Origin: Azospirillaceae bacterium
GTDB taxonomy: Bacteria > Pseudomonadota > Alphaproteobacteria > Azospirillales > Azospirillaceae
Direction: 5' to 3'
Assembly (NCBI GenBank): GCA_031291675.1
Contig: JARLIO010000070.1
Coordinates: forward strand, 1-64,000
Length of the DNA: 64,000 nt
Of the stretch, positions 15,859-53,606 are shown in pieces; position 1 is the first letter of the stretch, and each line of letters starts with the position of its first letter. The notes beneath the pieces were generated by a model. The model was given only the letters and a program-made list of their open reading frames with translations, was not told the origin of the DNA and did not search any database. The translations under genes were made by a program, and so were the position numbers.

Positions 15859-16084
15859 GTGCAGAGTCCGAGTTTCCCTCCGGTGGCGGGCCGCCATCGG
15901 CCTGAAATGATCGCCCCGGGCGCCACACGGAATCCATCGCGATCGGCGACGAACCGGAAATCACGATCGATTCGATTTGGCAGAATCGCGCGGAAGGGTG
16001 ATATTTCCGACCCTGCGGAACAGGGCCGCCGGTTCGATCGCCCGCGGAACCGAAGTCCGCGGCAACGGCAGGATCGGAGAAATC

Positions 16085-18280
16085 ATGGTAGAGAACGACG
16101 GCCCCGCCCCCGACACGGCGGTCCCGACAGAGCCCCCGGCCGCCACGGTGTCGGCGATCCAGGCGGCGTTCGCCGCCGCGGTTGCCCGGCATCAGGGCGG
16201 CGATGGCGCCGCCGCCGCCCGGCTCTACCGCCAGGTGCTGACGCTCCGCGCCGACATCCCGCAGGCCTTCAACAATCTGGGCGCAGTGTCGCTCGATCTC
16301 GGCCGCGCCACCGACGCGGACTGGGCATGCCGCCGGGCCCTGGCGCTCGACCCGACTTACGCGCAGGCCTATTACAACCTCGGTAACGCGCTCCAGGCCC
16401 AGGGCCACGCCACGGCCGCGGTTACCGCCTATCGCCGGGCCATCACGCTGAAAGCCGACTATCCGTTGGCGCATTACAATCGCGGCGATGCTCTGCGCGC
16501 CGCCGATGAGACCCAGGAGGCGATCGCAGCCTATCGGCAAGCCTTGACCCTGAAACCGGATTTTGCCGAGGCCTATGGCAATCTCGGCGTTGCGCTGTAC
16601 GATGGCGAGGACTTCACGGCGGCCGAGACGGCCTATCGCCGCGCCCTTGCCCTGAGGCCGCTCTATCCCCAGGCCCTCGACAATCTGGGGAATGTCCTGC
16701 TCCAGCTCAGTCAGCTTGATGCCGCGGTTTCAGCTCATGGCCGGGCCATTGCCGTGCAGCCCGGCCAGCCGGGGCCTTATTGCAATCTGGGCAATGCGCT
16801 CTCGGCCCGCGAGGACTTCGAGGACGCCATCGCCGCGTACCAGCGCGCCCTGGCCCTCGATCCCGACTACGGCGCCGCCCTGATCAATCTCGGCAACGCC
16901 CTGCGCGAGCAAGGTCGGTTCGACGAAGCCCAGGCCTCGTATCGCCGCGCCATCGCGATCAAGCCCGATTTTGCCGAGGCTTACAGCAATCTTGGCTTGG
17001 CCTTCTATGACAGTGATGACTATGCGCACGCCGCAATCGCCTGTCAGCAGGCGATTGCATTCCGGCCCCACTATCCCGAAGCCCACAACAATCTCGGCAG
17101 CGCGTTGCAGGCGCTGCGCCGCCTTGACGACGCTCTTGTCGTATGCCGCCGGGCGATCCGGCTCAAACCGGATTTCCTGGAGGCGCGCCTCAACATGTGC
17201 GGCGCCTTCACGAAACTGGGTCGCATCGACCAGGCTCTTGCGACCTATCAGGAGGCGGTCGCGCTGCGGCCCCATCACGCTCTGAGCCATTTCGGCTATG
17301 GTATGACACTGCTGAAACTGGGGCGGTACCGCGAGGGCTGGGCCGAATATGAATGGCGCTGGAAGATCCCGAAATTCGAAGCCCAATCCGCCGCGCTGAC
17401 CCAGCCGCGCTGGGCCGGCGAGCCGCTTGATGGACAGACGATTCTGCTGTCGGGGGAACAGGGCCTGGGCGATGCCTTGCAGTTCGTCCGCTACGCGCCC
17501 CTGGTCGCCGCGCGTGGCGGCCGCGTCGTGCTGCGGGTCCGCACCCCGCTGGTCCGCCTGTTCCGCAGCGTCGCCGGTGTTGCCGATGTTTTCACCATCG
17601 ACGCGACACCGCCGGCTTACGATTGCCATCTGCCGCTGATGAGCGTGCCCTGGGCGATCGGAACCACGCTCGACGACGTGCCGGCGACCGTGCCCTATCT
17701 TCATCCGGATCCGGCGGCCGTCGCGCGGTGGCGCGACCGGCTCGCCGAGCAGACCGGGGACCGGCCCGGCGGTCGCACCGTTGGTCTGGTCTGGGCCGGG
17801 GATGCGCGTCCGTTTGACCGACACTCCTATCGCGTCGACCTGCGCCGCAGCCTGCATCTGGATCGGTTCGCCCCCCTGGCCGGTATCCCCGGCCTGACCC
17901 TGGTCAGCCTGCAGAAAGGCCCACCGGCCCGGCAGTTGCTAACCCCTCCCGAGGGGCTGAGGCTGTTGAATTACATGGATGAGATGTACGATTTTGCCGA
18001 CACCGCGGCGCTGGTCGCGGCGCTCGATCTGGTGATCGCCGCGGATACCGCCGTGGCCCACTTGGCCGGGGCGCTCGGCAAGCCGGTGTGGATCCTGTCG
18101 CGGTTCGACAATTGCTGGCGCTGGTTGCATCAGCGCGATGATACGCCGTGGTACCCGACGGCGCGCCTGTTCCGCCAGTTGCGGCCGGGCGATTGGGATG
18201 CCGTCGTCGCGCATCTCAAGGTCGAATTGCTGCACTGGATGGCCACCTCGCCCACAGAGGGACTGATCGAGTCCGCGTGA
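16085..18280 (+). CDS. TPR protein with C-terminal GT9-like glycosyltransferase domain (copy 1)
   Basis: The 731-residue protein has about twelve TPR units (residues 20-410) of the type AYYNLGNALQAQGHATAAV. The C-terminal domain starts with GWAEYEWRWKIP (about 418), then LLSGEQGLGDALQFVRYAP (about 455), VGLVWAGD (about 566), LVSLQKG and DTAVAHLAGALGKPVWILSR (about 653). The last segment matches the nucleotide-sugar-binding region of heptosyltransferase-like (GT9) enzymes. No signal peptide is present, so it is cytoplasmic. Sugar donor and acceptor are unknown. Start 16085 has GGAGA seven bases before it; the frame opens 108 bases earlier without a ribosome site. It stands alone between the GntR gene and the HpaB-type operon, 12 kb from its paralogue cluster. 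Confidence 0.8.
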   Translation: MVENDGPAPDTAVPTEPPAATVSAIQAAFAAAVARHQGGDGAAAARLYRQVLTLRADIPQAFNNLGAVSLDLGRATDADWACRRALALDPTYAQAYYNLGNALQAQGHATAAVTAYRRAITLKADYPLAHYNRGDALRAADETQEAIAAYRQALTLKPDFAEAYGNLGVALYDGEDFTAAETAYRRALALRPLYPQALDNLGNVLLQLSQLDAAVSAHGRAIAVQPGQPGPYCNLGNALSAREDFEDAIAAYQRALALDPDYGAALINLGNALREQGRFDEAQASYRRAIAIKPDFAEAYSNLGLAFYDSDDYAHAAIACQQAIAFRPHYPEAHNNLGSALQALRRLDDALVVCRRAIRLKPDFLEARLNMCGAFTKLGRIDQALATYQEAVALRPHHALSHFGYGMTLLKLGRYREGWAEYEWRWKIPKFEAQSAALTQPRWAGEPLDGQTILLSGEQGLGDALQFVRYAPLVAARGGRVVLRVRTPLVRLFRSVAGVADVFTIDATPPAYDCHLPLMSVPWAIGTTLDDVPATVPYLHPDPAAVARWRDRLAEQTGDRPGGRTVGLVWAGDARPFDRHSYRVDLRRSLHLDRFAPLAGIPGLTLVSLQKGPPARQLLTPPEGLRLLNYMDEMYDFADTAALVAALDLVIAADTAVAHLAGALGKPVWILSRFDNCWRWLHQRDDTPWYPTARLFRQLRPGDWDAVVAHLKVELLHWMATSPTEGLIESA

Positions 18281-30122: not shown

Positions 30123-31826
30123 ATGAGCGGGAGCATTGCGGAACCGACCGCATCGACGGTCATCGGTCCGACCGGCACCGGCGCGGACGAGGCGGTGCTG
30201 AACCGCTTCACCCGGGCGGTGACCTGGCATCAGGCCGGCCATCTGGCCGAAGCCGGGGCCTGTTACCGCGACGCGATCGCGCTGCGCCCCGACCTCGCCG
30301 AGATCTACAACAATCTGGGCGTGATCGCGCTCGACCGCGGCCAGGCCGGCGTCGCGGTCACGGCGCATCTGCGGGCCGCTCTGCTCAAGCCCGACTTCGC
30401 CGAGGCCCTGTTCAATCTCGGCAACGCCTTGAACGCGCTGGGCCAGCGCGAACAGGCCGTCGCCGCCTATCGTGAGGCCCTGGGGTATCACAACGATTTT
30501 GCCGAAGCCTACAGCAATCTGGGCACCGTGCTGTTCCAACTTGGGGGCTATGACGCCGCCGTCGCCGCCTATCGCCAAGCCATCATCCTCCACCCGGGCC
30601 TACCCGATCCACCCTACAATCTTGGCAATGTCCTCCAGGCGTTACAGCAGTTCGGCGCGGCCGTCGCCGCCTACGACCGGGCCCTGGTCCTTGATCCCGA
30701 AAACCCGGAGCTCTGGAGCAACCGCAGCACCGCGCTGCGAATCCTGGGTCGCGTTGACGCGGCGGTCGAGGGCTTCCGGGTCGCCCTCAGCCATGCCCCG
30801 GGTGATCCCCAGATTCATCTCAATTTCGCGATGGCCTTGCTCCATCAGGGCCAATTCGCGGACGGTTGGCGCGAATATGAGTGGCGCTGGAAGACCGAAA
30901 AATTCCGCCCCTGGGTGGTCAGCTTCGCCCTGCCCGAATGGACCGGGGAATCCCTGAGCGGCAAGACCGTGCTGCTTTATACCGAACAGGGTTTTGGCGA
31001 CGCCCTGATGTTCGCCCGCTTCGCCCCGGTTCTTGCCGCAACCGGTGCGCGGGTGGTGGTCCGGACGTTGCCATCGCTGGTGCGGCTGCTGCGCACCCTG
31101 CCCGGCGTCACCGAGGTCGCACCGTTCGAGACGCCGTATTTCGATTTTGACTATCACCTGCCGCTGATGAGCGTGCCGCATCGGCTCGGTATCGATCTGG
31201 ACAGCATTCCGGCGACGATCCCCTATCTTTGGGCCGAGGCCACCGCGGTTGCCGCCTGGCGCGCCCGGCTGGCGGCAGCCGGCCCGAACCTGAAGGTCGG
31301 CGTGGTCTGGGCCGGGGATCCGCGACGGCACGACCCCAGCGCCCATTCCATGGATCAACGGCGCAGCCTGGGCTTCGATCGCATCGCCAGCCTGGCCAGG
31401 ATCCCGGGCGTGACGCTGGTCAGCCTGCAAAAGGGCGAGCCGCCGTTGCCCGCGCTCGACGGGCCCATTCTTGACGGGCCCATTCTTGACTGGATGGACA
31501 GCATCGTTGATTTTGCCGACACCGCAGCGCTGGTTACCGCCCTGGACCTGGTGATCACCGTCGACACCGCGGTCGCGCACCTGGCCGGGGCCCTGGGGAA
31601 ACCGGTCTGGATCCTGTCACGGTTCGACGGCTGCTGGCGCTGGCTGCGTGACCGGGACGACACCCCGTGGTATCCGACCGCAAGACTGTTTCGCCAGCAT
31701 CGCGCCGGTGACTGGGACGACGTCATGACCCGGGTCGCCGAGGCCCTGCGGGCGGCGATCGCCACCGATGCCACGCCGATCTTTGAACCGGGGGCGTCCT
31801 CGCTGACGGCATTGGAGAAAGAATGA
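30123..31826 (+). CDS. TPR protein with C-terminal GT9-like domain (copy 2, operon gene 1)
   Basis: The 567-residue protein has about seven TPR units (residues 20-245), making it the shortest of the cluster. Its C-terminal domain holds EYEWRWKTEKF (about 251), LYTEQGFGDALMFARFAP (about 287), VGVVWAGD (about 392) and DTAVAHLAGALGKPVW (about 481). A 15-bp tandem duplication at 31461-31490 adds a second DGPIL unit just before the conserved DWMDSIVDFADTAAL. The start at 30123 has GAGGAG five bases upstream; GTG at 30117 overlaps that site and is less likely. It is the first of five overlapping genes and is coupled to the next by ATGA. Confidence 0.8.
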   Translation: MSGSIAEPTASTVIGPTGTGADEAVLNRFTRAVTWHQAGHLAEAGACYRDAIALRPDLAEIYNNLGVIALDRGQAGVAVTAHLRAALLKPDFAEALFNLGNALNALGQREQAVAAYREALGYHNDFAEAYSNLGTVLFQLGGYDAAVAAYRQAIILHPGLPDPPYNLGNVLQALQQFGAAVAAYDRALVLDPENPELWSNRSTALRILGRVDAAVEGFRVALSHAPGDPQIHLNFAMALLHQGQFADGWREYEWRWKTEKFRPWVVSFALPEWTGESLSGKTVLLYTEQGFGDALMFARFAPVLAATGARVVVRTLPSLVRLLRTLPGVTEVAPFETPYFDFDYHLPLMSVPHRLGIDLDSIPATIPYLWAEATAVAAWRARLAAAGPNLKVGVVWAGDPRRHDPSAHSMDQRRSLGFDRIASLARIPGVTLVSLQKGEPPLPALDGPILDGPILDWMDSIVDFADTAALVTALDLVITVDTAVAHLAGALGKPVWILSRFDGCWRWLRDRDDTPWYPTARLFRQHRAGDWDDVMTRVAEALRAAIATDATPIFEPGASSLTALEKE

Positions 31827-33580
31827 GCGGGCCCAGACACCCCAAGCGATCGAAGCGATCGAAACTGAAGCCGGGCCCAAACCGTGGCGTGGCGTTGACA
31901 CCCGTGGCGGACGCCCCACCGCCCACCGGTGAAGCGCTGATCTTGTTCAACCGTGCCGTGTTTCATCATGGCCGAAATGAGTTTCCGGATGCGGTCACCT
32001 TGTATCAGCAAGTGGTCGCGCTGCGGCCCGACCTGGCGCCGGTGCGCAACAATCTCGCAGTGGCGTTGCGCGATCTCGGCCGCATCACGGACTCGCTGGC
32101 CTGCTGCCGCGCGGCGATCGCGCTGAAGCCGGATTACGCCCAGGCCTACAACAATCTGGGAACCGCGCTGCAAGCGCTGAACCCGGTACCAGCGACGCCG
32201 GCAACGACCGGCACCGACGCGGCGCGAACCGCCTATCGCCGGGCAATCACCCTGATCCCCGACTATGCCCAGGCCTACAACAATCTCGGCAATGTGCTGC
32301 GCGAGTCGGACCAGACCGAACAGGCGGCCGCCGCCCTGCGACGCGCCATCACCCTGATGCCGGATCTGCCCGAAGCCTACGACAATCTGGCCACCACGAC
32401 ACTCGACGCCGGCGCCTTTGACACGGCTGTCGCGATCTGTCGCCGCAGCACGCTGGTCCGCCCCGGCCACGCCGAATCCTTTAGTGATCTCGGCATGGCA
32501 CTGCAAAGTTCCGGGCATCCGGACGCGGCGCTGACCGCCTACCGGCAGGCGGTCACGTTGAATCCCGAGAACACGCAAATACACTTCAATCGCGCCACCG
32601 CGCTGTTACAGGCGGGCCAGTACCGCGAAGGCTGGGCCGAATATGAGTGGCGCCGCCGCACCGCCATCGACGTGGCCCTGGCGCGTCCTTATGACCAACC
32701 GGAATGGACCGGCGACCGCCTCGATGGCCGCACCATCCTGCTTTATACCGAACAGGGATTCGGCGACACCCTGATGTGGGCGCGCTTCGTGCCCCTGGTT
32801 GCGGCACAGGGTGGTTCGATCGTGTTGCAGGTCTACCCGTTGTTGGCACGCTTGATGCGGGGCCTTCCCGTCGATGTCGATGTCGTCGATCTCAGCCCGA
32901 CCGACCGCCATTTCGATACCCATCTGCCTTTGATGACCCTGCCGCATCGGCTCGGGATCGGCCTCGACAACCTGCCCGCCACGGTGCCCTATCTGCGGCC
33001 CGATCCGGCGATGGCGACGGCATGGCGGGTCCGGCTCGCGGGCCTGTCCGGGCTCAAGGTCGGGCTGGTCTGGGCCGGTGCGGCGCGGATCGGCAACCGT
33101 GCCGCCAATCGGATCGACCGCTGGCGCAGCATCGCGCTGGCGCGTCTGGCGCCGCTCGCCGCGGTGCCGGGCATCGCCTGGGTCAGCCTGCAAATGGGCG
33201 CCGCCGCAGCCGAGGCCGGGATGCCCCCCGCCGGCATGACGCTGCTGGACTGGACCGAGGAGTTGACCGACTTCGCCGACACCGCCGCCCTGATCGACGC
33301 CCTGGATCTGGTGATCACGGTCGACACCGCGGTCGCACACCTCGCCGGCGCCCTGGGCAAGCCGGTCTGGATCCTGTCGCGCTACAATGGGTGCTGGCGC
33401 TGGCTGAACGATCGCGACGACTCGCCCTGGTATCCCACCGCCCGCCTGTTCCGCCAACCGCGGATGGGGGACTGGGATACGGTCATCACCCAGGTCCGCG
33501 ATCAACTCGATCACCTTGCCTTGGCGCGGCAAGCGGCACGCGCCGCGCCAGCCCCCCGATCGACAATCCCGCAGCCATGA
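31823..33580 (+). CDS. TPR protein with C-terminal GT9-like domain (copy 3, operon gene 2)
   Basis: The 585-residue protein starts with a very basic leader (MSGPRHPKRSKRSKLKPG) not found in its paralogues, then about seven TPR units. The catalytic-like domain begins at EYEWRRRTAID (about 273), so the usual EYEWRWK is changed. YTEQGFGDTLMWARF (about 307), VGLVWAGA (about 412) and DTAVAHLAGALGKPVW (about 500) follow. The usual LVSLQKG reads WVSLQMG here, so this copy may differ in donor binding or activity. It overlaps both neighbours by 4 nt. Confidence 0.8.
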   Translation: MSGPRHPKRSKRSKLKPGPNRGVALTPVADAPPPTGEALILFNRAVFHHGRNEFPDAVTLYQQVVALRPDLAPVRNNLAVALRDLGRITDSLACCRAAIALKPDYAQAYNNLGTALQALNPVPATPATTGTDAARTAYRRAITLIPDYAQAYNNLGNVLRESDQTEQAAAALRRAITLMPDLPEAYDNLATTTLDAGAFDTAVAICRRSTLVRPGHAESFSDLGMALQSSGHPDAALTAYRQAVTLNPENTQIHFNRATALLQAGQYREGWAEYEWRRRTAIDVALARPYDQPEWTGDRLDGRTILLYTEQGFGDTLMWARFVPLVAAQGGSIVLQVYPLLARLMRGLPVDVDVVDLSPTDRHFDTHLPLMTLPHRLGIGLDNLPATVPYLRPDPAMATAWRVRLAGLSGLKVGLVWAGAARIGNRAANRIDRWRSIALARLAPLAAVPGIAWVSLQMGAAAAEAGMPPAGMTLLDWTEELTDFADTAALIDALDLVITVDTAVAHLAGALGKPVWILSRYNGCWRWLNDRDDSPWYPTARLFRQPRMGDWDTVITQVRDQLDHLALARQAARAAPAPRSTIPQP

Positions 33581-35736
33581 GCGACGTCGCCGAACCGTTC
33601 CCGCCGCACGGCCCCCCGCTCACGATCGGGCAGTTGTTCACGCTGGCCGTGGCCCGACAGAGCACGGGACGGTTCCAGGAAGCGGCGCTGCTTTATTTGC
33701 AAGCCATCGCGATCGACCCGATGATCGCCGAGATCCACAACAATCTCGGCATTGCCTTCCTGAAGCTGGAGCGCTTCGACGCGGCGACCGTGGCCTGTAG
33801 CACGGCGATCCTGCTGGCACCGGAGGCGGCCCAGGCCTATTGCAATCTTGCGATGGCGGCGCAGAGCCTCAGCCAATGCGCCGCCGCGGAAACGGCGTAT
33901 CGTCGGGCCACCATGATCAAGCCCGACTATCCCCACGCCCACAAAAACCGCGGCACCAACCTGATGACTCTCGGCGTTTTCGAGACCGCGGCAGCCTGTT
34001 TTCGCCGCGCGATCGCCGGACGCTGCGACTTTCCCGAAGCCTACACCGGTCTGGCCCAGGCCTGCTTCAATCAGGGCCTGCTGACCGAGGCCGCCGCGGC
34101 CGCCCGTCGCACCTTGCGCCTGAAGCCCGACGACAGCGCGGCGTTTTACAGTCTCGGCAATGCGCTCGGCCGCAGCGGCAACACGGCGGCCGCGCTGACC
34201 GCCTACCGATCCGGGATCGCCCTGCAACCGGATGCCCCGGAACTCTACAACAATATCAGCAACATCTTCCACCTTCAGGAACGGATGGCCGAAGCCGTCA
34301 TCGCCGAGCACCGGGCGCTGGTCCTGAATCCGCAATACGCCGCCGCGATCACCAATCTCGGCAATGCCATGAAGATGCTGAACCGGTTGCCCGAGGCCAT
34401 CTACGCCTATCACCAAGCGCTGACGCTGCAACCGGGCTTCGCCGAAGCGCTCAGCAATCTCGGCAACGCCCTGGTCCATGCCGGCCGCTACGAGGAGGCG
34501 GTCAAGATCTGTCACCGATCGACCCTCATCGGACCGGAATATTCCGAAGCCTATAACAATATGGGCAATGCGCTGCACGCCCTGCGACGGATCGAGCCCG
34601 CCCATACCCTGTATCGTCAGGCCATCACGCTGGCGCCCTCCAATGCCGGCCCGCATAATAATCTGGGCAACGTCATGATGTCGTTGCGCGAAACGGAACG
34701 CGCGATCCGGGCCTATCGGCGCGAAGTGGTGATCGGCAGCGCGAACGGCCACGGTCCCGACCCCCGGGTTCACGTCAATCTGGCGATGGCGCTGTTGATG
34801 ATGGGTCAGTTCCAGGAAGGCTGGATCGAATATGACTGGCGCTGGAAGACCCGCGATTTCCGCGGCGAAGTCCTGCCGTCACCGCCACCGGAATGGTGCG
34901 GCGAATCCCTGGAAGGGCGGACCATTCTGCTTTACGGCGAACAGGGGTTCGGCGATGCCCTGCAGTTTTGCCGTTATGCCACCGTGGTCGCGGGGCTTGG
35001 GGCGCGGGTGCTGATCCGGGTGCAACAGCCCCTGGTCCGGCTGCTGGCGACGGTCCCCGGGGTCGCGGCCGTCGCCGGCAGCGTCGCGGAGTTGCCGGCG
35101 TTCGACTTTCACCTGCCGCTGATGAGTGTTCCCCGGGTGGTTGGCACGACGCTGGAAACGATTCCGGCCACGGTCCCCTATCTTCATGCCGACGCCGTGG
35201 CCTGGCGCCGGCGCCTCGCCCTGCTTGCCGGCATGAAGGTCGGCCTGGTCTGGGCCGGCAATCCGCGGGCGTTCAACCATGAAGCCCATCTGACCGATCG
35301 TCGCCGCAGCCTGAGCCTCGATCATTACGCCGTCCTGGGAACAATCCCGGGCGTCAGCCTGATCAGCCTGCAACTGGGACCCGCGGCCATCCAGACCCGC
35401 TCACCGCCGCCGGGTTTACGTCTGACAGACTGGACCGCGGAATTGGGCGATTTCGCTGAAACCGCCGCACTGGTCGCGGCGCTGGATCTGGTGATCACCG
35501 TCGACACCGCGGTCGCGCATCTCGCCGGCGCCCTCGGCAAGCCGGTATGGATCCTGTCGCGATACGACGGGTGCTGGCGCTGGCTGCGTGACCGTGATGA
35601 CACCCCCTGGTATCCCACCGCCCGCTTGTTCCGTCAAACCGACCCCGACGAATGGCATAGTGTCGTCGCGCGCATCGCCACGGCGTTGCGGCAACGCGCC
35701 GCGGCGGCGGCCGGGGTCGGAGCACCGGCATCATGA
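33577..35736 (+). CDS. TPR protein with C-terminal GT9-like domain (copy 4, operon gene 3)
   Basis: The 719-residue protein has about twelve TPR units. The open frame extends far upstream, but the ATG at 33577 overlaps the previous stop as ATGA and begins MSDVAEPFPPHG, matching the other N-termini. C-terminal motifs are EYDWRWKTRDF (about 418), LYGEQGFGDALQFCRYA (about 454), VGLVWAGN (about 555), LISLQLG in place of LVSLQKG, and DTAVAHLAGALGKPVW (about 643). TPRs of this kind bind peptides or proteins, so an acceptor protein rather than a lipid is plausible. Confidence 0.8.
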   Translation: MSDVAEPFPPHGPPLTIGQLFTLAVARQSTGRFQEAALLYLQAIAIDPMIAEIHNNLGIAFLKLERFDAATVACSTAILLAPEAAQAYCNLAMAAQSLSQCAAAETAYRRATMIKPDYPHAHKNRGTNLMTLGVFETAAACFRRAIAGRCDFPEAYTGLAQACFNQGLLTEAAAAARRTLRLKPDDSAAFYSLGNALGRSGNTAAALTAYRSGIALQPDAPELYNNISNIFHLQERMAEAVIAEHRALVLNPQYAAAITNLGNAMKMLNRLPEAIYAYHQALTLQPGFAEALSNLGNALVHAGRYEEAVKICHRSTLIGPEYSEAYNNMGNALHALRRIEPAHTLYRQAITLAPSNAGPHNNLGNVMMSLRETERAIRAYRREVVIGSANGHGPDPRVHVNLAMALLMMGQFQEGWIEYDWRWKTRDFRGEVLPSPPPEWCGESLEGRTILLYGEQGFGDALQFCRYATVVAGLGARVLIRVQQPLVRLLATVPGVAAVAGSVAELPAFDFHLPLMSVPRVVGTTLETIPATVPYLHADAVAWRRRLALLAGMKVGLVWAGNPRAFNHEAHLTDRRRSLSLDHYAVLGTIPGVSLISLQLGPAAIQTRSPPPGLRLTDWTAELGDFAETAALVAALDLVITVDTAVAHLAGALGKPVWILSRYDGCWRWLRDRDDTPWYPTARLFRQTDPDEWHSVVARIATALRQRAAAAAGVGAPAS

Positions 35737-37889
35737 TCAATCCCGGCCGGCAAGCGCGAGCGCTGGTGCCGCACCCCGATGATGCCCTGACCGTCCTGTT
35801 CGCCCGGGCGGTGGCCCGGCAGGCGGTGGACGAACACGCCGAAGCGATCGCACTGTATCGGCAACTGATCGCCCTCAGCCCGATGCTGGCCGAGGTCTAC
35901 GTCAATCTTGGCCAGTCCCTGGCGGCCTGCGGCGCGATGGTGCCGGCCGGCGATGCCTTGCGCGATGCCGTGGTCCTGGCCCCGGCGGATCCCCGGTTTC
36001 TGTATGCGCTGGCGGAAATCCTGGTGCTGCGCGGCCGCGTTCGTGATGCCATCAACGCCTATCGCCGCGCGGTGCGCGCCCGCCCCGACTTCGCCCAGGC
36101 CTGGGGCCATCTGGGCCTGGCCCTCGGCGCCTTGAACCAGCCGACGGCCGCGATCATCGCCTATCGCCACGCCACGGCCCTGCTGCCTGATGCCGCCGAA
36201 GCTCACTTCAATCTCGGCAACAGCCTGGCCGGCCAGCGTCGCTTCGCCGAGGCGCTGATGGCCTATTGGCGCACCGTCGTGCTTGAGCCCGGCCACCACG
36301 CGGCCCGGCATAATCTGGGCAATGCCCTCCGCGATCTGGACCGGCTTGAGGTGGCTGTCGTCTGTTTCGGCCTTCATATCGCCCGTCAACCCAATTTCCT
36401 CCCGGCCTATACCGCGCTCAGCCAGACCTTGCTGCGGCTCGACCAGCGCGGTTCCTCCCTGCCCCAAAGCCCGCTGGCCCCCGCCCGCCACGCCTACCAT
36501 CTGCGGCCCGATGACCCCACGGCGTTGACCGCGCTGGGCAATGCGCTGAAGGCCATCGACCAGCTCGCCCCGGCGCGGGCCGCGTTCCGCCAGGCCATCG
36601 CGATGCAGCCCGACGAGGCCGAAACCTACAGCAATCTCGCCTTCGCCGAAATCGATGGCAGCGCCCATGACGCGGCGGTGGTCGCATGCCGCCGCGCCCT
36701 GATCCTGAAACCCGATCATGCCGAAGCGCTCAACAATTTCGGCAAGGCGCGACAGGCGCAGTGTGCCGCCGGGATCCCGTTCTTTCGCCACGCCGTGACG
36801 TCCCGACCCGACCACGACGCGGCCTACAACAATCTGGGCAACGCGCTGGCGGCCTGCGGCGACTTCGCCGGGGCCATGGTGGCCTACCACCGGGCCCAAC
36901 GCAGCAATCCCGCGGAACCCCGGTTTCACGTCAATCGCGCCCTGACCCTGTTGCGCTACGGCTATTGGCGCGAGGGGTGGGCCGAATATGAGTGGCGCTG
37001 GAAAACCCGTCCTTTCATCCGGGCGAAGCCGGCCATCCCCACCCCGGAATGGCGCGGCGAACCGCTCGCCGGACGAACGGTGCTGTTGTATGCCGAGCAA
37101 GGCCATGGCGACGCGATCCAGTTCACCCGCTTCGCCCCGATGGTCGCGGCACGCGGGGGGCGGGTGGTCCTGTCGACCTTTGCCGACCTGGTCAGGCTGC
37201 TGCAAACGGCGCCGGGCGTCGACGCGGTTGCGCGGTTCGCCGGGTCCCTGCCCGCCCATGATTGCCATCTGCCCCTGATGAGTGTCCCCCATGTGCTGGG
37301 AATCGATATCGCCGACGCGGCGGTGCCGGTACCCTATTTGCGCGCCACACCCGATGCCGCGGCGGCCTGGCGGATCCGTCTTGCCGGACTGCCGGGGCTC
37401 AAGGCCGGACTGGTCTGGGCCGGCGATCCCCGTCCGTTCAACCGCGAAGCCCATCAGGTCGACAGCCGGCGCAGCATGACCCTGGGGCAGTTCGCGCCCC
37501 TGGGCACGGTCACGGGCCTGACCCTGATCAGCCTGCAAAAGGGCGCCCCCGCCGCCGAGGCGGCGACGACGCCGCCGGGCCTTCGGCTCTATGACTGGAT
37601 GGAGGAAATCAACGACTTCGCCGATACCGCGGCGCTGATTGAAAATCTCGACCTGGTGATCACGGTCGACACCGCGGTGGCCCATCTGGCCGGCGCGCTG
37701 GGCAAGCCGGTGTGGATCCTGTCGCGTTGGGAGGGCTGCTGGCGCTGGCTGCGTGACCGGGACGACACCCCCTGGTATCCCAGCGCCCGCCTGTTCCGCC
37801 AGCGTCGCCCCGGCGACTGGGGTGAGGTCGTCACCCGGGTCGCCGCCGCCGTGGCCGAGCGGGTCGCCATCACCCGGGCCGCCCGATGA
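35733..37889 (+). CDS. TPR protein with C-terminal GT9-like domain (copy 5, operon gene 4)
   Basis: The 718-residue protein has about eleven TPR units, less regular than in the neighbours in the middle (residues 210-270). Its motifs are EYEWRWKTRPF (about 418), LYAEQGHGDAIQFTRFAP (about 454, with His where paralogues have Phe), AGLVWAGD (about 557), LISLQKG and DTAVAHLAGALGKPVW (about 646). The residue after WILSR is Trp, giving WEGCWRW instead of the common YDGCWRW. Both ends overlap neighbouring genes by 4 nt. Confidence 0.8.
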   Translation: MINPGRQARALVPHPDDALTVLFARAVARQAVDEHAEAIALYRQLIALSPMLAEVYVNLGQSLAACGAMVPAGDALRDAVVLAPADPRFLYALAEILVLRGRVRDAINAYRRAVRARPDFAQAWGHLGLALGALNQPTAAIIAYRHATALLPDAAEAHFNLGNSLAGQRRFAEALMAYWRTVVLEPGHHAARHNLGNALRDLDRLEVAVVCFGLHIARQPNFLPAYTALSQTLLRLDQRGSSLPQSPLAPARHAYHLRPDDPTALTALGNALKAIDQLAPARAAFRQAIAMQPDEAETYSNLAFAEIDGSAHDAAVVACRRALILKPDHAEALNNFGKARQAQCAAGIPFFRHAVTSRPDHDAAYNNLGNALAACGDFAGAMVAYHRAQRSNPAEPRFHVNRALTLLRYGYWREGWAEYEWRWKTRPFIRAKPAIPTPEWRGEPLAGRTVLLYAEQGHGDAIQFTRFAPMVAARGGRVVLSTFADLVRLLQTAPGVDAVARFAGSLPAHDCHLPLMSVPHVLGIDIADAAVPVPYLRATPDAAAAWRIRLAGLPGLKAGLVWAGDPRPFNREAHQVDSRRSMTLGQFAPLGTVTGLTLISLQKGAPAAEAATTPPGLRLYDWMEEINDFADTAALIENLDLVITVDTAVAHLAGALGKPVWILSRWEGCWRWLRDRDDTPWYPSARLFRQRRPGDWGEVVTRVAAAVAERVAITRAAR

Positions 37890-40024
37890 TCGCAAACACC
37901 CCTTCCCCTGCGCCCGCGGCGCCGGCACCGGCAGCGCTGGCGCTGTTCCAGCAGGCGCTGGCCCGCCATGAGGCCGGCGACTTCAAGGCGGCAATCGCCC
38001 TCGATCTTGAGGCGCTTGCGGTGCAACCCGACATTCCGGAGATCCACAACAATCTGGGCACGGCGCTGGTCGCGCTGGGGCGTCCCGAAGCTGCCCTGCC
38101 CGCCTTTGGCTGGGCCGTCATCCTGGCCCCGGCCTATGCCCGCGGCTACTACAATTTCGCCAGCGCTCTGCTGACCCTGGGGCACGCCGCCGCCGCCGCC
38201 CAGACCTTCCGCCATGCCGCCCGGATCAAGCCGGACTATGCCGCAGCGCATCACAATCACGGCCTGGCCCTGAAGGCGATCGGCCGGTTCGGCGAGGCGC
38301 TGGCCGCCTATCACCGCGCCATCGCGCTCGGGCCCGCCGCCCCGGAAGCCTGGCTCAATCTCGGCAATTCGCTGGTCGACCAGGGAGCCCTTGTCGAGGC
38401 TGAGGCCGCTTATCGCCGGGCCCTCATTCTGCAACCGGATTACGCACCGACCCACGACAATCTCGGCAATGTGTTGCGGGTCCAAGGTGATAATGGAGCG
38501 GCCGTGGCGGCCTATCGTCGGGCCATCGTGTTACAGCCCGACGATCCGCGTTTCCCGCTGCATCTTTGCGAGACGCTGCTGGCCCTCGAACAATTCCGCC
38601 CCGCGGCGGCCATCGGCTGGCGCGCCGTATTGCTTCACCCCGGTGATTTGCGGGCGCTGCATACCCTCGCCTTCGCTCTGGTGGAGGCAAACGCGGGCGC
38701 CGCCGCGCTGGCGCTGCATCGTCACATCGTCGCCCGGGAACCCGACCGGCCCGAGGTTTACAGCAACCTGGCGACCACGCTGCTTGAATACAGCGCGTTC
38801 GGCGACGCCATCGCCGCGGCCCACCGGGTGCGCATTCTCGCCCCCGGCTCCGCCGAAGGCCATTTCAATCTCGGCAACGCCCTGAGCGAACTGCGCCAGG
38901 ACGAGGCGGCGATCGCGTTGTTCCGCCAGGCCCTGGCCCTCAACCCGGCCGACGAACGCGCCCATAATAATCTGGGCCATGCCTGTACCATCCGCAATCA
39001 GACCGACGACGCCCTGACCGCATTCAGCCGCGCGATCCGCATCGTGCCCGGCGACCCCGGTTTCCACGTCAACCGGGCGATGATCCTGTTGCAGCGCGGG
39101 GCGTTCCGCGAGGGTTGGGCCGAATATGAGTGGCGCTGGAAATTCCGCCATTTCTCGCGCGAGATCGCGCAGTTCAAGCAACCCATCTGGCGCGGCGAAC
39201 CGCTCGTGGGTCGCAGTATCCTGCTGATCGGCGAACAGGGCTTCGGCGACATCATCCAATTTGCCCGCTACGCGCCGCTTCTCGCGGCGCAAGGCGCCCA
39301 GGTCATGATCAGCGCCTTCCGTCCGCTTGCCCGGCTGCTGCGCAGCGTTGCCGGTGTCGCCGCGGTCGCGCCGTTCGGCACGGCGTCGCTCGTCTGCGAC
39401 TTCCAGTTGCCGATGCTGAGCGCCCCCCACGCCCTGGGGACCGACCTGGACACCATCCCGGCAACGGTTCCCTATGTCAAAGCCGACCCGACCTTTGTCG
39501 GCTTCTGGCAACGCCGGCTGGCGAAGCTGCCGGGCCTCAAGGTCGGGCTGGTCTGGGCCGGTGACAGCCATGCCGCCCACCGACGCGCCTTTCTCACCGA
39601 CCGCCGCCGCAGCCTGAGGCTGGAACAATTCGACGCCCTGAGCCGAATCCCCGGGGTCACCCTGGTCAGCCTGCAGAAGGGCAATCCGGCACTGCAACGC
39701 CGCACCGCCGCCCTGGGCGGTGAGATCATCGACTGGATGGACGAGGTCATGGACTTCGCGGACACCGCGGCCCTGATCGAGGCCCTGGATCTGGTGATCG
39801 CGGTCGACACCGCGGTGGCGCATCTGGCCGGCGCGTTGGGCAAACCGGTGTGGATCCTGTCGCGCTTTGACGCCTGCTGGCGCTGGCTGCTCGACCGTGA
39901 GGACACGCCCTGGTACCCGACGGCGCGGCTGTTCCGCCAACGCCAACCGGGCGATTGGGACGAAGTCCTGGCCCGCGTCACCGCCGCCCTGGAACAGGCC
40001 GTAGCCGCGACGGAGGCGCGCTGA
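37886..40024 (+). CDS. TPR protein with C-terminal GT9-like domain (copy 6, operon gene 5)
   Basis: The 712-residue protein has about twelve TPR units. Its C-terminal domain has EYEWRWKFRHF (about 413), LIGEQGFGDIIQFARYAP (about 449), VGLVWAGD (about 552), LVSLQKG and DTAVAHLAGALGKPVW (about 640). It is the last gene of the ATGA-coupled run. A 143-bp gap separates it from the sixth cluster member, which may have its own promoter. Confidence 0.8.
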   Translation: MIANTPSPAPAAPAPAALALFQQALARHEAGDFKAAIALDLEALAVQPDIPEIHNNLGTALVALGRPEAALPAFGWAVILAPAYARGYYNFASALLTLGHAAAAAQTFRHAARIKPDYAAAHHNHGLALKAIGRFGEALAAYHRAIALGPAAPEAWLNLGNSLVDQGALVEAEAAYRRALILQPDYAPTHDNLGNVLRVQGDNGAAVAAYRRAIVLQPDDPRFPLHLCETLLALEQFRPAAAIGWRAVLLHPGDLRALHTLAFALVEANAGAAALALHRHIVAREPDRPEVYSNLATTLLEYSAFGDAIAAAHRVRILAPGSAEGHFNLGNALSELRQDEAAIALFRQALALNPADERAHNNLGHACTIRNQTDDALTAFSRAIRIVPGDPGFHVNRAMILLQRGAFREGWAEYEWRWKFRHFSREIAQFKQPIWRGEPLVGRSILLIGEQGFGDIIQFARYAPLLAAQGAQVMISAFRPLARLLRSVAGVAAVAPFGTASLVCDFQLPMLSAPHALGTDLDTIPATVPYVKADPTFVGFWQRRLAKLPGLKVGLVWAGDSHAAHRRAFLTDRRRSLRLEQFDALSRIPGVTLVSLQKGNPALQRRTAALGGEIIDWMDEVMDFADTAALIEALDLVIAVDTAVAHLAGALGKPVWILSRFDACWRWLLDREDTPWYPTARLFRQRQPGDWDEVLARVTAALEQAVAATEAR

Positions 40025-40167
40025 CACCAGCCCAGGGAGGCCACCGGCCCGATGCGTTGCAACAGGCCGCACGGGGCCGCCGGGCCAGACCGTAACCTTG
40101 GCAAGAGGGTCAATGGGGTTATCATCGCCGCGAAAGCGAGCGGAACCCGGCATTTTCGGATGGCACA

Positions 40168-42117
40168 ATGTTGACGATCGAACAGGCTTTGAATCAGGCG
40201 CTGTCGCATCATGGCGCGGCGCGACTGGCCGAAGCCGAGGCGCTTTACCGGCAGATCCTGGCGGTTTCGCCCGAGCATCCCGATGCCCTGCATTGGCTTG
40301 GCTTTCTGGCTCATCAGGTGGGACGCCATGAAGTGGCGCTCCAACTGATGACACTGTCGCTGTCAAAAGCGCAAAATATCGCCAACTATTACAATAATTT
40401 GGGGCAGGTCCTTTCTGCCCTGGAACGACCGGCCGCCGCGGCCTTTCACAATGCCGTCGTCCTGGCACCCGAATTTCCGGAAGCCTATGTCAATCTGGCG
40501 CCGATTCTGGCTCGGGACGGACAGACTTGCGCCGCTCTGGCGTTGATAAGGCGCGTGCTCTTGTTAACCGGTGCTGTTGCCGATACCTGCAATAGCTATG
40601 GACTGATCCGGAAGCAAAAAGGTGATTTCGCCAATGCCTCCGCCGGTTATCGACAGGCATTGGCACTGGACCCGGCTCACAGTCCGGCTCTCAACAACCT
40701 TGGAAACCTGTTGAGGGATCAGAATTTCCTGAACAAAGCCGCCGCTTGCTATCGCAAGGCCGTCACTCTCAAGCCAGGCTTTACCGAGGCCTATGCCAAC
40801 CTTGGGGCCGTGCTCCAGGAGCTGGGGCGGCTCGATGAGGCCGTCATCTGCTATCGAAAGCTGATCGAGCTCAACCCGAGCCTGGTCGCAGCCTGCACCA
40901 GCCTGGGCAGCGTTTTGCAAAGGCAGGGCCGGCTGAACGACGCGGTCCTTTGCTGTCGCAGAGCGGTCGCCATCGCGCCCGACAGTGCCAACAGCTACGT
41001 CAATCTCGTGGCCTACGCCACCATGCGGGGCTTGCCGCCCGAACAACGATGCCTGGAGGAAGCGATCCGCTGTTGCCGCAGGGCGATCAAGATCGATCCC
41101 ACTCTTGCCGAAGCCCATTACAATCTTGCCACCCCTCTGCTGCTGACCGGACAGTTCCACCCGGGATGGCAAGAATATGAGTGGCGATGGAAGGTTCCCT
41201 CGTTTCAGGCACACCGACCCGCCTTTCCTCAAGCGGAATGGCAGGGAGAACCATTGGCAGGCCGTACCATATTGCTCTACGGCGAACAGGGGTTCGGCGA
41301 TTTTCTGCAATTTGTCCGGTATGCCCCCTTGGTGGCAGCACGGGGGGCGCGCATCGTGTTGCGCGTCCCCAAACCGTTAATCCGGCTCCTGAAAACGGTC
41401 CCCGGCATTTCCGAAATCATCGGCCAGGATGAAGCGCCGCCGCCCTTTGATTACCATCAATCCCTGATGAGCCTCCCCGGGATCTTTGGCACCGACATCG
41501 ACACTATTCCTGCGACCATTCCCTATTTCAGGGCCGATCCGGCGATAACCGCGCGCTGGCAGACCAGGCTGTCCGCTTTGCCGGGGCTCAATGTTGGTCT
41601 GGTCTGGGCGGGGAATCCACGGCGCCACGACTTCGCCGCCACTCTGGTTGACCAGCGCCGCAGCATTGCCCTTGAGCATTTTGCCCCCCTGGCCACGATT
41701 CCGGGGATTCAATGGATCAGCCTGCAAAAAGGCCCTGGCGCCCGACGGAGCGGAACACCGCCTGGAGGCCTGATGCTTCACGACTGGATGGACGAGATCG
41801 ACGACTTCGCGGACACCGCGGCGCTGATCGAGGCCCTTGATCTTGTCGTCACCGTCGATACATCGGTTGCCCATCTGGCCGGAGCATTGGGCAAACCGGT
41901 GTGGATTCTATCACGGTATGACGGTTGCTGGCGCTGGCTGCTCAACCGCGATGACACGCCATGGTATCCCACCGCACGCCTGTTTCGCCAGGATCGTCCC
42001 CATGACTGGGATCGCGTCATCGACCGTGTTCGCGATCATCTTGCGGCATGGGCCTCGACCCCGCCGCAACTTTTGGATTTAGCGATGCGCCATGACAAAC
42101 AGCCCGACACGCCGTAA
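40168..42117 (+). CDS. TPR protein with C-terminal GT9-like domain (copy 7)
   Basis: The 649-residue protein has about nine TPR units. Its base composition looks slightly less GC-rich than the preceding five, and it has its own leader gap. Motifs are EYEWRWKVPSF (about 336), LYGEQGFGDFLQFVRYAP (about 372), VGLVWAGN (about 476) and DTSVAHLAGALGKPVW (about 564; Ser where the others have Ala). The N-terminus MLTIEQALNQALSHHGAARLAEAE is more like stand-alone TPR-glycosyltransferase proteins, so it may be the older member from which the operon copies diverged, or a separate acquisition. Confidence 0.8.
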   Translation: MLTIEQALNQALSHHGAARLAEAEALYRQILAVSPEHPDALHWLGFLAHQVGRHEVALQLMTLSLSKAQNIANYYNNLGQVLSALERPAAAAFHNAVVLAPEFPEAYVNLAPILARDGQTCAALALIRRVLLLTGAVADTCNSYGLIRKQKGDFANASAGYRQALALDPAHSPALNNLGNLLRDQNFLNKAAACYRKAVTLKPGFTEAYANLGAVLQELGRLDEAVICYRKLIELNPSLVAACTSLGSVLQRQGRLNDAVLCCRRAVAIAPDSANSYVNLVAYATMRGLPPEQRCLEEAIRCCRRAIKIDPTLAEAHYNLATPLLLTGQFHPGWQEYEWRWKVPSFQAHRPAFPQAEWQGEPLAGRTILLYGEQGFGDFLQFVRYAPLVAARGARIVLRVPKPLIRLLKTVPGISEIIGQDEAPPPFDYHQSLMSLPGIFGTDIDTIPATIPYFRADPAITARWQTRLSALPGLNVGLVWAGNPRRHDFAATLVDQRRSIALEHFAPLATIPGIQWISLQKGPGARRSGTPPGGLMLHDWMDEIDDFADTAALIEALDLVVTVDTSVAHLAGALGKPVWILSRYDGCWRWLLNRDDTPWYPTARLFRQDRPHDWDRVIDRVRDHLAAWASTPPQLLDLAMRHDKQPDTP

Positions 42118-52817: not shown

Positions 52818-53606
52818 ATGTCGAGTTCAATTTCGGGCTCATCGTCCAGTCAATCACAACTCCTGGCCCAGGAACTCAGTAAGCTTCGCGCGGCGCAACA
52901 AGCGTCGGCGGCCAGCAGCAACAGCACGTCCTCGTCCGACAGTACGTCGTCGACGACCAGTTCGACAACATCGAGCACAACCGCAAGCACATCGGCGACG
53001 ACCTCGAGCAGTCTGCTCGTTTCCGATCTGGCGCAGCTCCTGCTTCAGCTTCAGGAAGGTTCGGCACCGACCACCGACGCAACCACGGCCGCGGCGACCG
53101 CATCCTCGACCGCTTCCACCAGCGCGTCGACATCGTCCTCCAGCACCAGCTCAACCTCAACGGCCTCGGACACTGACGAGGCCTCAAAGATCGAGAACGA
53201 TCTTGCCACCCTGGTCGCGGATCTCAGCAGCGTGATGGGCAGTACGTCCTCCAGCTCAAGCGGCAGCTCCGCCGCCGCCGCGAGCAGCTCGACCAGCGAC
53301 AGCACCAGTGCAACCACCTCCGCCTCCGTCAGCGGCCAGTTCGGTTCGCGTAACCTCGAAGCGGCATTGGCCTCTCTGCTCAGCGGCTCGACGGACAGCT
53401 CCACGAGCGGAACATCGACCGCGAGCAGCACGTCTTCGACCGCCAGCACCACGACGGCCAGCTCGACCGCCGCCTCCACCACGGCGTCCACCACGGCCTC
53501 GACCGCCGCAACCCTGGCATCGATGCTGTCCCAGCTGGAAAGCTATTCCAGCGTGCAGAACTTCGAGGATGCTTCCCTCGAAAGCAGCATGGCCCTGAGC
53601 ATCTAG
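52818..53606 (+). CDS. Ser/Thr/Ala-rich low-complexity protein under sigma-54 control
   Basis: The 262-residue protein is dominated by Ser, Thr and Ala runs (about residues 35-65, 95-120, 150-175 and 195-235). They separate four short conserved-looking amphipathic helices: SQLLAQELSKLRAAQQASAA, LLVSDLAQLLLQLQEG, IENDLATLVADLSSVMG and NLEAALASLLSG. A final helix AATLASMLSQLESYSSVQNF follows. No export signal, Cys or Trp is seen. AAGGAGGT lies four bases before the ATG at 52818, giving strong translation. No family is recognised. The Ser/Thr density makes it a possible O-glycosylation acceptor or a secreted structural protein. Confidence 0.75.
   Translation: MSSSISGSSSSQSQLLAQELSKLRAAQQASAASSNSTSSSDSTSSTTSSTTSSTTASTSATTSSSLLVSDLAQLLLQLQEGSAPTTDATTAAATASSTASTSASTSSSSTSSTSTASDTDEASKIENDLATLVADLSSVMGSTSSSSSGSSAAAASSSTSDSTSATTSASVSGQFGSRNLEAALASLLSGSTDSSTSGTSTASSTSSTASTTTASSTAASTTASTTASTAATLASMLSQLESYSSVQNFEDASLESSMALSI

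Follow-up and report, generated by a model that had tools for sequence, protein, structure and literature searches.

A six-gene array of tetratricopeptide repeat proteins with GT9-like glycosyltransferase domains in an Azospirillaceae genome

Results

A Six-Gene Array of Repeat-Glycosyltransferase Proteins

The window studied here is a 64,000-nucleotide stretch of an Azospirillaceae bacterium genome (assembly GCA_031291675.1, contig JARLIO010000070.1, positions 1 through 64,000 of the forward strand). Open reading frame (ORF) calls place six genes, herein g1 through g6, one after another and head to tail on the + strand of the window at 30123 through 42117 (Table 1). All six encode an N-terminal run of tetratricopeptide repeats (TPRs) followed by a C-terminal glycosyltransferase (GT) part of 315 to 332 residues, as cut for analysis. 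An earlier reading made from the letters alone (the sequence-only reading) described five of the genes as an ATGA-coupled run; g1 through g5 are indeed joined by four 4-nt ATGA overlaps, and a gap of 143 nt separates g5 from g6. The longest ORF in the frame of g3 opens further upstream, at 32704. Third-position GC content (GC3) is 0.68 in g6 versus 0.81 to 0.83 in g1, g2, g4, and g5. A scan for a promoter or terminator upstream of g1 found none. Coupled production is plausible, in view of the overlapping and fused junctions of such genes in other loci (see below).

Table 1. Positions of the TPR-GT genes, their overlaps, and a candidate acceptor gene in the window
Feature	Description	Position	Strand	Basis
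g1	TPR-GT, 567 aa	30123..31826	+	ORF; ATG 30123 preceded by gaggag; Pfam TPR + PF01075
g2	TPR-GT, 585 aa	31823..33580	+	ORF; PF01075 26.9 bits; overlaps g1 by ATGA
g3	TPR-GT, 719 aa	33577..35736	+	Start set at ATGA 33577; PF01075 25.6 bits
g4	TPR-GT, 718 aa	35733..37889	+	ORF; ATGA overlap; PF01075 25.4 bits
g5	TPR-GT, 712 aa	37886..40024	+	ORF; ATGA overlap; PF01075 25.4 bits
g6	TPR-GT, 649 aa	40168..42117	+	ORF; PF01075 24.7 bits
g1/g2 overlap	ATGA	31823..31826	+	Likewise 33577-33580, 35733-35736, 37886-37889
g0	TPR-GT, at most 767 aa (start codon uncertain)	15977..18280	+	GT-domain hidden Markov model
Ser/Thr-rich protein	Speculative candidate acceptor, 262 aa, 52% Ser+Thr	52818..53606	+	ATG 4 nt after AAGGAGGT

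The lengths of 567 to 719 residues and the shared C-terminal GT9-like domain claimed by the sequence-only reading are borne out: all six proteins pass the cutoff of 22 for PF01075 (Glyco_transf_9), with scores of 22.2 to 26.9 bits over just 32 to 34 residues. None of the six matches Pfam GT41 (PF13844) at E 0.001. The distance from EY(E/D)WR to DT(A/S)VAHL is 230, 228, 225, 228, 228, and 228 residues in g1 through g6, close to constant as had been proposed. The exact spelling of the motifs differs from that first given in g1 (VGVVWAG), g2 (EYEWRR), g3 (EYDWRW), g4 (EQGHGD and AGLVWAG), and g6 (DTSVAHL). A home-made scan counts 7, 7, 12, 10, 12, and 8 TPR units, which agrees with the earlier estimate of about 7 to 12; the counts are minima because the TPR series in g4 and g6 has holes.

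The donor motif D-T-x-x-x-H is present in all six genes, and the donor segment can be aligned with that of a GT9 protein from the same genome. Across the wider family described below, its D and H are retained in 25 of the 26 copies from this genome and in 131 of 136 domains from loci of named genomes; the second block, EQGxGD, persists in 24 of these copies and 124 of these domains. By analogy with WaaC, E-Q-G-x-G-D would contain the GT9 catalytic Asp. Mean pairwise identity among the array proteins is 57% in the GT part and 35% in the TPR part, in keeping with the description of a conserved catalytic-like half beside a variable TPR half. The short span that Pfam recognizes would suit non-catalytic TPR chaperones or scaffolds carrying a relic GT9 domain; given that both motif blocks persist in most copies and that conservation is stronger in the GT half than in the TPR half, we consider this very improbable.

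Fourfold-degenerate third positions are identical between array copies at 0.55 in the conserved core and 0.52 elsewhere, against 0.42 for random sequence. With these sites near saturation, we reject the idea that the core is conserved because of a recent duplication or gene conversion. The longest exact nucleotide run common to array copies is 38 nt. Because synonymous sites are near saturation while the proteins are conserved and long shared nucleotide runs are absent, the copies are old, maintained separately for a long time by selection on the protein and without recent exchange.

The Catalytic Half Has a Predicted GT9-Type Fold

Structure was modeled for one of the six array proteins, g1, as the full chain and as the isolated GT domain. 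The AlphaFold model of the full chain (mean predicted local distance difference test [pLDDT] 91.0; predicted template modeling score [pTM] 0.87) comprises seven TPR helix pairs and then an α/β half; the GT domain alone gave a pLDDT of 91.2 and a pTM of 0.91. The nearest structure to the GT domain is the GT9 protein 3tov (Z 18.9, rmsd 2.8, 250 residues aligned), and further matches include WaaF (1psw, Z 17.6), WaaC (16.7), and TibC (16.1); plant NDH-complex subunits follow at Z 15.0 to 15.6, then an epimerase at 12.5 and lower scores. Identity to the GT9 structures over the aligned fold is 11 to 18%, and a GT profile searched against PDB sequences gave one match (E 1.1), which was not accepted as a relative. 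GT41 is absent among the 50 matches listed for the isolated domain. The structural check suggested with the sequence-only reading, run on g1, thus returned a GT-B fold with GT9 structures ranked first, and the model supports a GT9-type, heptosyltransferase-like GT-B fold for the catalytic half. Protein-acting enzymes of the GT9 fold have precedent: the TibC entry carries the title heptosyltransferase, and a work cited in PMC7591256 names, in its title, a heptosyltransferase family that modifies bacterial autotransporters.

With the whole g1 chain, Foldseek ranks 1 through 8 are chains of SPINDLY, the plant O-fucosyltransferase (TM 0.31 to 0.40 by query length); the first OGT is at rank 11, with two designed TPR proteins above it. 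VIA-align gives OGT a Z of about 22 at an rmsd near 9 to 11, and designed TPR proteins a similar Z.

Copies in the Same Genome and in Other Lineages

The assembly (5.87 Mb in 99 contigs, 97.7% complete) contains 26 TPR-GT copies, one of them broken. Seven lie in the window, four in C80, four in C10, and two in C82; nine are single, two of these far apart on C88. The final two copies of the C80 cluster are fused in one frame. The sequence-only reading had overlooked both these genomic copies and g0, the seventh copy in the window. The GT-domain model scores g0 at 556.8 bits, g0 being one of the model's own seven sequences; its PF01075 score is 20.6 bits in one scan and 22.2 in another (cutoff 22). 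On contig C30 (L005:9104-10545) a TPR-GT copy is split over two frames, either a pseudogene or an assembly error.

A FastTree phylogeny of 221 GT domains, 25 of them from this genome, groups the array in a clade of 22 domains (support 0.956) that g0 shares. Because 19 of these 22 are from this genome, the expansion is largely lineage-specific. Within the tree, g6 is sister to the module that closes the C80 cluster. A larger clade containing the array holds 125 domains (support 0.47), and a 120-domain clade within it has a support of 0.91.

TPR-GT copies were found in 15 of 20 genomes searched, the present one included, and genomes of the same family hold up to 27, 24, 13, and 12 copies. A scan of named genomes gave at least 580 confirmed stretches, from which 80 loci were kept by sequence, not by context; by their record titles they span Alpha-, Beta-, and Deltaproteobacteria, Cyanobacteria, Planctomycetes, and others. 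Neighboring modules in the fetched loci are fused in frame at 42 junctions (20 loci) and unfused at 51, of which 28 are 4-nt overlaps (18 ATGA, 10 GTGA) and 23 are of other kinds. Fused proteins elsewhere carry two to six TPR-GT modules. Examples are a 2,828-residue protein with five GT matches (L028), a 2,238-residue Geobacteraceae protein (L098) whose six matches include four close to full length, and a 3,287-residue protein from Microcoleus with five (L115); together with L029, these loci have single open frames of 2,238 to 3,287 residues holding four to six TPR-GT matches. The sequence-only reading had named widespread arrays with a known role as an outcome that would count against it. Such arrays are widespread; the role found in the literature belongs to the single-gene enzyme FlmG, and no account of TPR-GT9 arrays or fused TPR-GT proteins was recognized in an open-access library that lacks most subscription papers.

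Module Order Is Conserved Between Arrays of Other Lineages

We compared 21 loci with at least three modules, retaining pairs with three or more reciprocal best TPR matches. Two pairs are collinear, each with five of five reciprocal TPR best matches in order: L045/L042, both titled Telmatospirillum, and L075/L099, from Acetobacteraceae and from a record titled Asaia. Between matched modules, TPR identity is 53 to 68%, compared with within-array means of 37 to 40%. Matched GT halves are 60 to 69% identical in L045/L042 (within-array means 58 and 62) and 73 to 78% in L075/L099 (59 and 59). Another Telmatospirillum pair falls below the cut (TPR identity 48%) and is in order in a laxer run; order is partly kept between L064 and L099. 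As both pairs are collinear, module order is conserved in these lineages, and this collinearity favors one engine with many addresses.

The lineage-specific clade around the array can also be explained by redundancy, the paralogs being retained for dosage or by drift while sharing one acceptor and one donor. The broken copy on C30 would fit, as would the Telmatospirillum GT halves, whose matched identities hardly exceed the within-array means. Against redundancy stand the nearly saturated synonymous sites in conserved proteins that have no long shared runs, and the module orthology of two genome pairs; we judge it improbable.

Flagellin Lies near Some Family Members

We take the Caulobacter gene flbA to be flmG. 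According to PMC7591256, FlmG of Caulobacter crescentus is a flagellin O-glycosyltransferase of 596 residues with an N-terminal TPR half and a C-terminal GT-B half. The TPR half binds flagellin, the GT half alone fails, and the enzyme needs pseudaminic acid made via NeuB; a reference title in the same source describes flaF, flbT, and flbA-flaG as a contiguous unit.

In the present genome and 14 relatives, flagellin occurs within 10 kb of 13 of 90 TPR-GT loci, compared with 1.0 expected from random placement, and within 5 kb of 9 of 90, compared with 0.54. Two of the 13 loci share one flagellin. Flagellin and TPR-GT copies occur together in 14 genomes, 8 of which contain these 13 loci; one locus of the 90 comes from a genome that lacks flagellin. 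Seven of the 80 kept loci have a flagellin match (L066, L073, L077, L080, L091, L098, and L113). Pfam confirms flagellin in L066, L098, L113, and L127, FlbT in L098 and L127, and FlaF in L098. In the present genome, about 3.9 kb separates the four genes of the C10 cluster from a flagellin that lies at the end of the contig. On contig C17 (L014:1170-7855), two GT families lie beside one flagellin: a stretch of 7 kb contains the flagellin, a TPR-GT41 protein (PF13844), and a TPR-GT9 copy in which C-T-x-P-x-H replaces D-T-x-x-x-H.

To survey other partners of the array clade, 145 genes were picked at random from 248 within 2.5 kb and scanned, with no matched far control; the scan covered loci longer than 9 kb from other genomes and proteins of up to 900 residues. 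Of the 145 genes, 2 match CheW. Beside the array itself, the scanned neighbors include a sugar ABC transporter, GH3, esterase-like, and siderophore-type uptake proteins. No lipopolysaccharide (LPS) or capsule gene is among these array neighbors, nor is a dedicated acceptor, pilins not having been searched for. In four Burkholderia/Paraburkholderia loci (L052, L053, L057, and L058) a TPR-GT gene lies near a conserved gene resembling a CheW/CheV-type chemotaxis protein.

Within the window, the Ser/Thr-rich protein of Table 1 lies 10.7 kb from g6. Its longer, 267-residue ORF is 51% Ser+Thr, the next highest of 171 called ORFs reaching 25%, and its Ser and Thr codons are varied. It matches no Pfam family, and the ORFs of the fetched loci include no relative. 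Linked to the array by neighborhood alone, it is a speculative acceptor. Elsewhere in the window, the product of a gene at 2669 through 4648 (− strand) combines TPRs with a 2OG-Fe(II) oxygenase domain (PF13759) at its C-terminus, another design that joins TPRs to an enzyme.

Donor Motifs Separate Two Groups of Copies

No NeuB match was found in the present genome (97.7% complete), so the nonulosonic acid route of FlmG finds no support there; NeuB is present in 10 of the 14 relatives that carry TPR-GT copies. Some copies in relatives lack both the D and the H of the donor motif, mostly in the form x-T-x-x-G-E (the G-E form), and others keep only the H. Copies lacking both occur in six of the 10 genomes that have NeuB (G015 and five genomes with the G-E form) and in none of the five without it (one-sided Fisher p = 0.042, or 0.084 counting the G-E form alone; the genomes are not independent). 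These counts exclude one gapped row (G009), one misaligned row (G018), and one odd motif (G007).

A copy of the G-E form in L029 adjoins a Polysacc_synt_2 protein and a DegT-type protein that look like PseB and PseC; by eye, the neighborhoods of the G-E copies in L028 and L133 seem similar. In L131, whose context is FlmG-like, a copy that is 28% identical to g6 over 542 residues (E 7e-30) also lacks the D and H. With regard to ADP-heptose or a related sugar as donor, a model of HldE domain I gave only below-cutoff matches in the present genome (best 188.7 versus 345 bits), the best of which scans as a PfkB kinase only. From these few genomes, we infer that the G-E class may use nonulosonic acids, as FlmG does, and the array a nucleotide-diphosphate sugar.

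Discussion

We propose that g1 through g6 are six cytoplasmic protein O-glycosyltransferases that would work much as FlmG does. Each TPR superhelix would grip a polypeptide acceptor, onto which the GT9-fold C-terminal domain would move a sugar from a nucleotide-diphosphate donor. The catalytic halves would be variants of one engine and the TPR half would select the protein or site modified, the array then being a set of addresses produced together by translational coupling. The acceptors would most likely be exported or surface proteins, with flagellar filament proteins the leading candidate. We give this reading, in which the array is a set of GT9-class protein O-glycosyltransferases that resemble FlmG, share one engine, and have their targets specified by the TPRs, a probability of about 0.6. 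Its parts differ in strength: action on protein is likely, specialization of the TPRs for individual proteins or sites is an evenly balanced proposition, and flagellin as the acceptor of the window array is a tentative suggestion about which we have more doubt than confidence. For the window array, we infer activity, donor, acceptor, cytoplasmic location, and division of labor alike.

Several observations weigh against this proposal. The window's contig has no flagellin match, and the flagellin/flaF/flbT linkage of FlmG is not seen for the array; in the 125-domain clade, a single domain (C10 uncounted) has flagellin or FlbT at a distance of 5 kb or less. Copy number does not track flagellin number, G006 having six flagellins and no copies and G010 five flagellins and 27 copies. 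No recurrent partner appears beside the array clade in other genomes, the top families reaching 4 of 145 scanned neighbors. Since designed TPR proteins score beside OGT, part of the whole-chain similarity is TPR-driven, and the Asn found at the inner TPR position in 51 of 68 units of g0 through g6, though it speaks for the proposal, is common in TPRs generally. Only two pairs among the 21 arrays passed the collinearity test. In both, the GT halves choose the same module partners (five of five), so the TPR half is not the sole carrier of module identity. The TPR margin over within-array identity exceeds the GT margin (about 22 versus 5 points in L045/L042, 24 versus 17 in L075/L099), with the caveat that stronger conservation of a domain limits how far its copies can diverge. 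The earlier suggestion of differing acceptors has indirect support: the TPR halves differ and are kept module by module in two other genome pairs, which fits differing acceptors or sites. Between L042 and the window array there is no collinearity.

The same GT-half pairing is what an assembly line of different sugars would need, and the array could instead make part of a surface polysaccharide or LPS, its GT9 enzymes glycosylating glycans while the TPRs scaffold a multienzyme complex. The GT fold is that of the LPS heptosyltransferases WaaC and WaaF with the donor motif retained, arrays and fused multimodule proteins resemble such a line, and epimerase/dehydratase proteins are among the commonest near the array clade, yet at 4 of 145 and perhaps as ordinary dehydrogenases. 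We hold this to be unlikely, if the least unlikely of the alternatives, because the whole chain resembles protein O-glycosyltransferases, flagellin is enriched beside family members, LPS and capsule genes are absent among the scanned neighbors of the array, and the TPR halves separate modules by the wider margin.

Protein O-glycosylation by the array may also be one case of a broader scheme. The arrays would be ordered, addressable glycosylation lines that repeat one engine, with a TPR arm for each site or partner; their order would be selected, split and fused forms would be interchangeable, and at least two donor classes would share one chassis, nucleotide-diphosphate sugars with D-T-x-x-x-H and nonulosonic acids with x-T-x-x-G-E. 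Taken jointly, these proposals are doubtful.

PMC7591256 describes the basis of specificity in cytoplasmic protein O-glycosylation as poorly understood. Here one genome supplies many related catalytic domains on differing TPR arms, and arrays of other lineages match module to module between species. If the TPR arm alone sets the target, the family would offer a kit of parts from which cytoplasmic O-glycosylation could be programmed, with the fused forms as glycosyltransferase megaproteins.

Among known systems, the array proteins share with WaaC/WaaF and TibC the predicted fold of the GT half and the donor motif, and differ from them in carrying a long TPR half and in the low identity over the aligned fold. 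With SPINDLY and OGT (GT41) they share a TPR superhelix joined to a GT-B domain, the inner-position Asn, and the top whole-chain Foldseek matches; unlike these, their GT half is GT9-like, without a Pfam GT41 match. The flagellin glycosyltransferase Maf-1 is not known to be a GT9 enzyme. Its TPR domain, reported to determine specificity for the flagellin acceptor and for the site (PMC13317340, citing others), is C-terminal, unlike those of the array, and its donor is a nonulosonic acid. The comparison with FlmG, made by description, is closest in build, an N-terminal TPR half before a C-terminal GT-B half, and elsewhere in the family, flagellin, FlbT, and FlaF are found beside TPR-GT genes as at the Caulobacter locus. 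FlmG is one NeuB-dependent gene, whereas the array comprises six in a genome without a NeuB match, and it keeps the donor-motif D and H that the copy in the FlmG-like context of L131 lacks. We do not file the array as FlmG because the NeuB route and a flagellin neighborhood were both looked for and not found.

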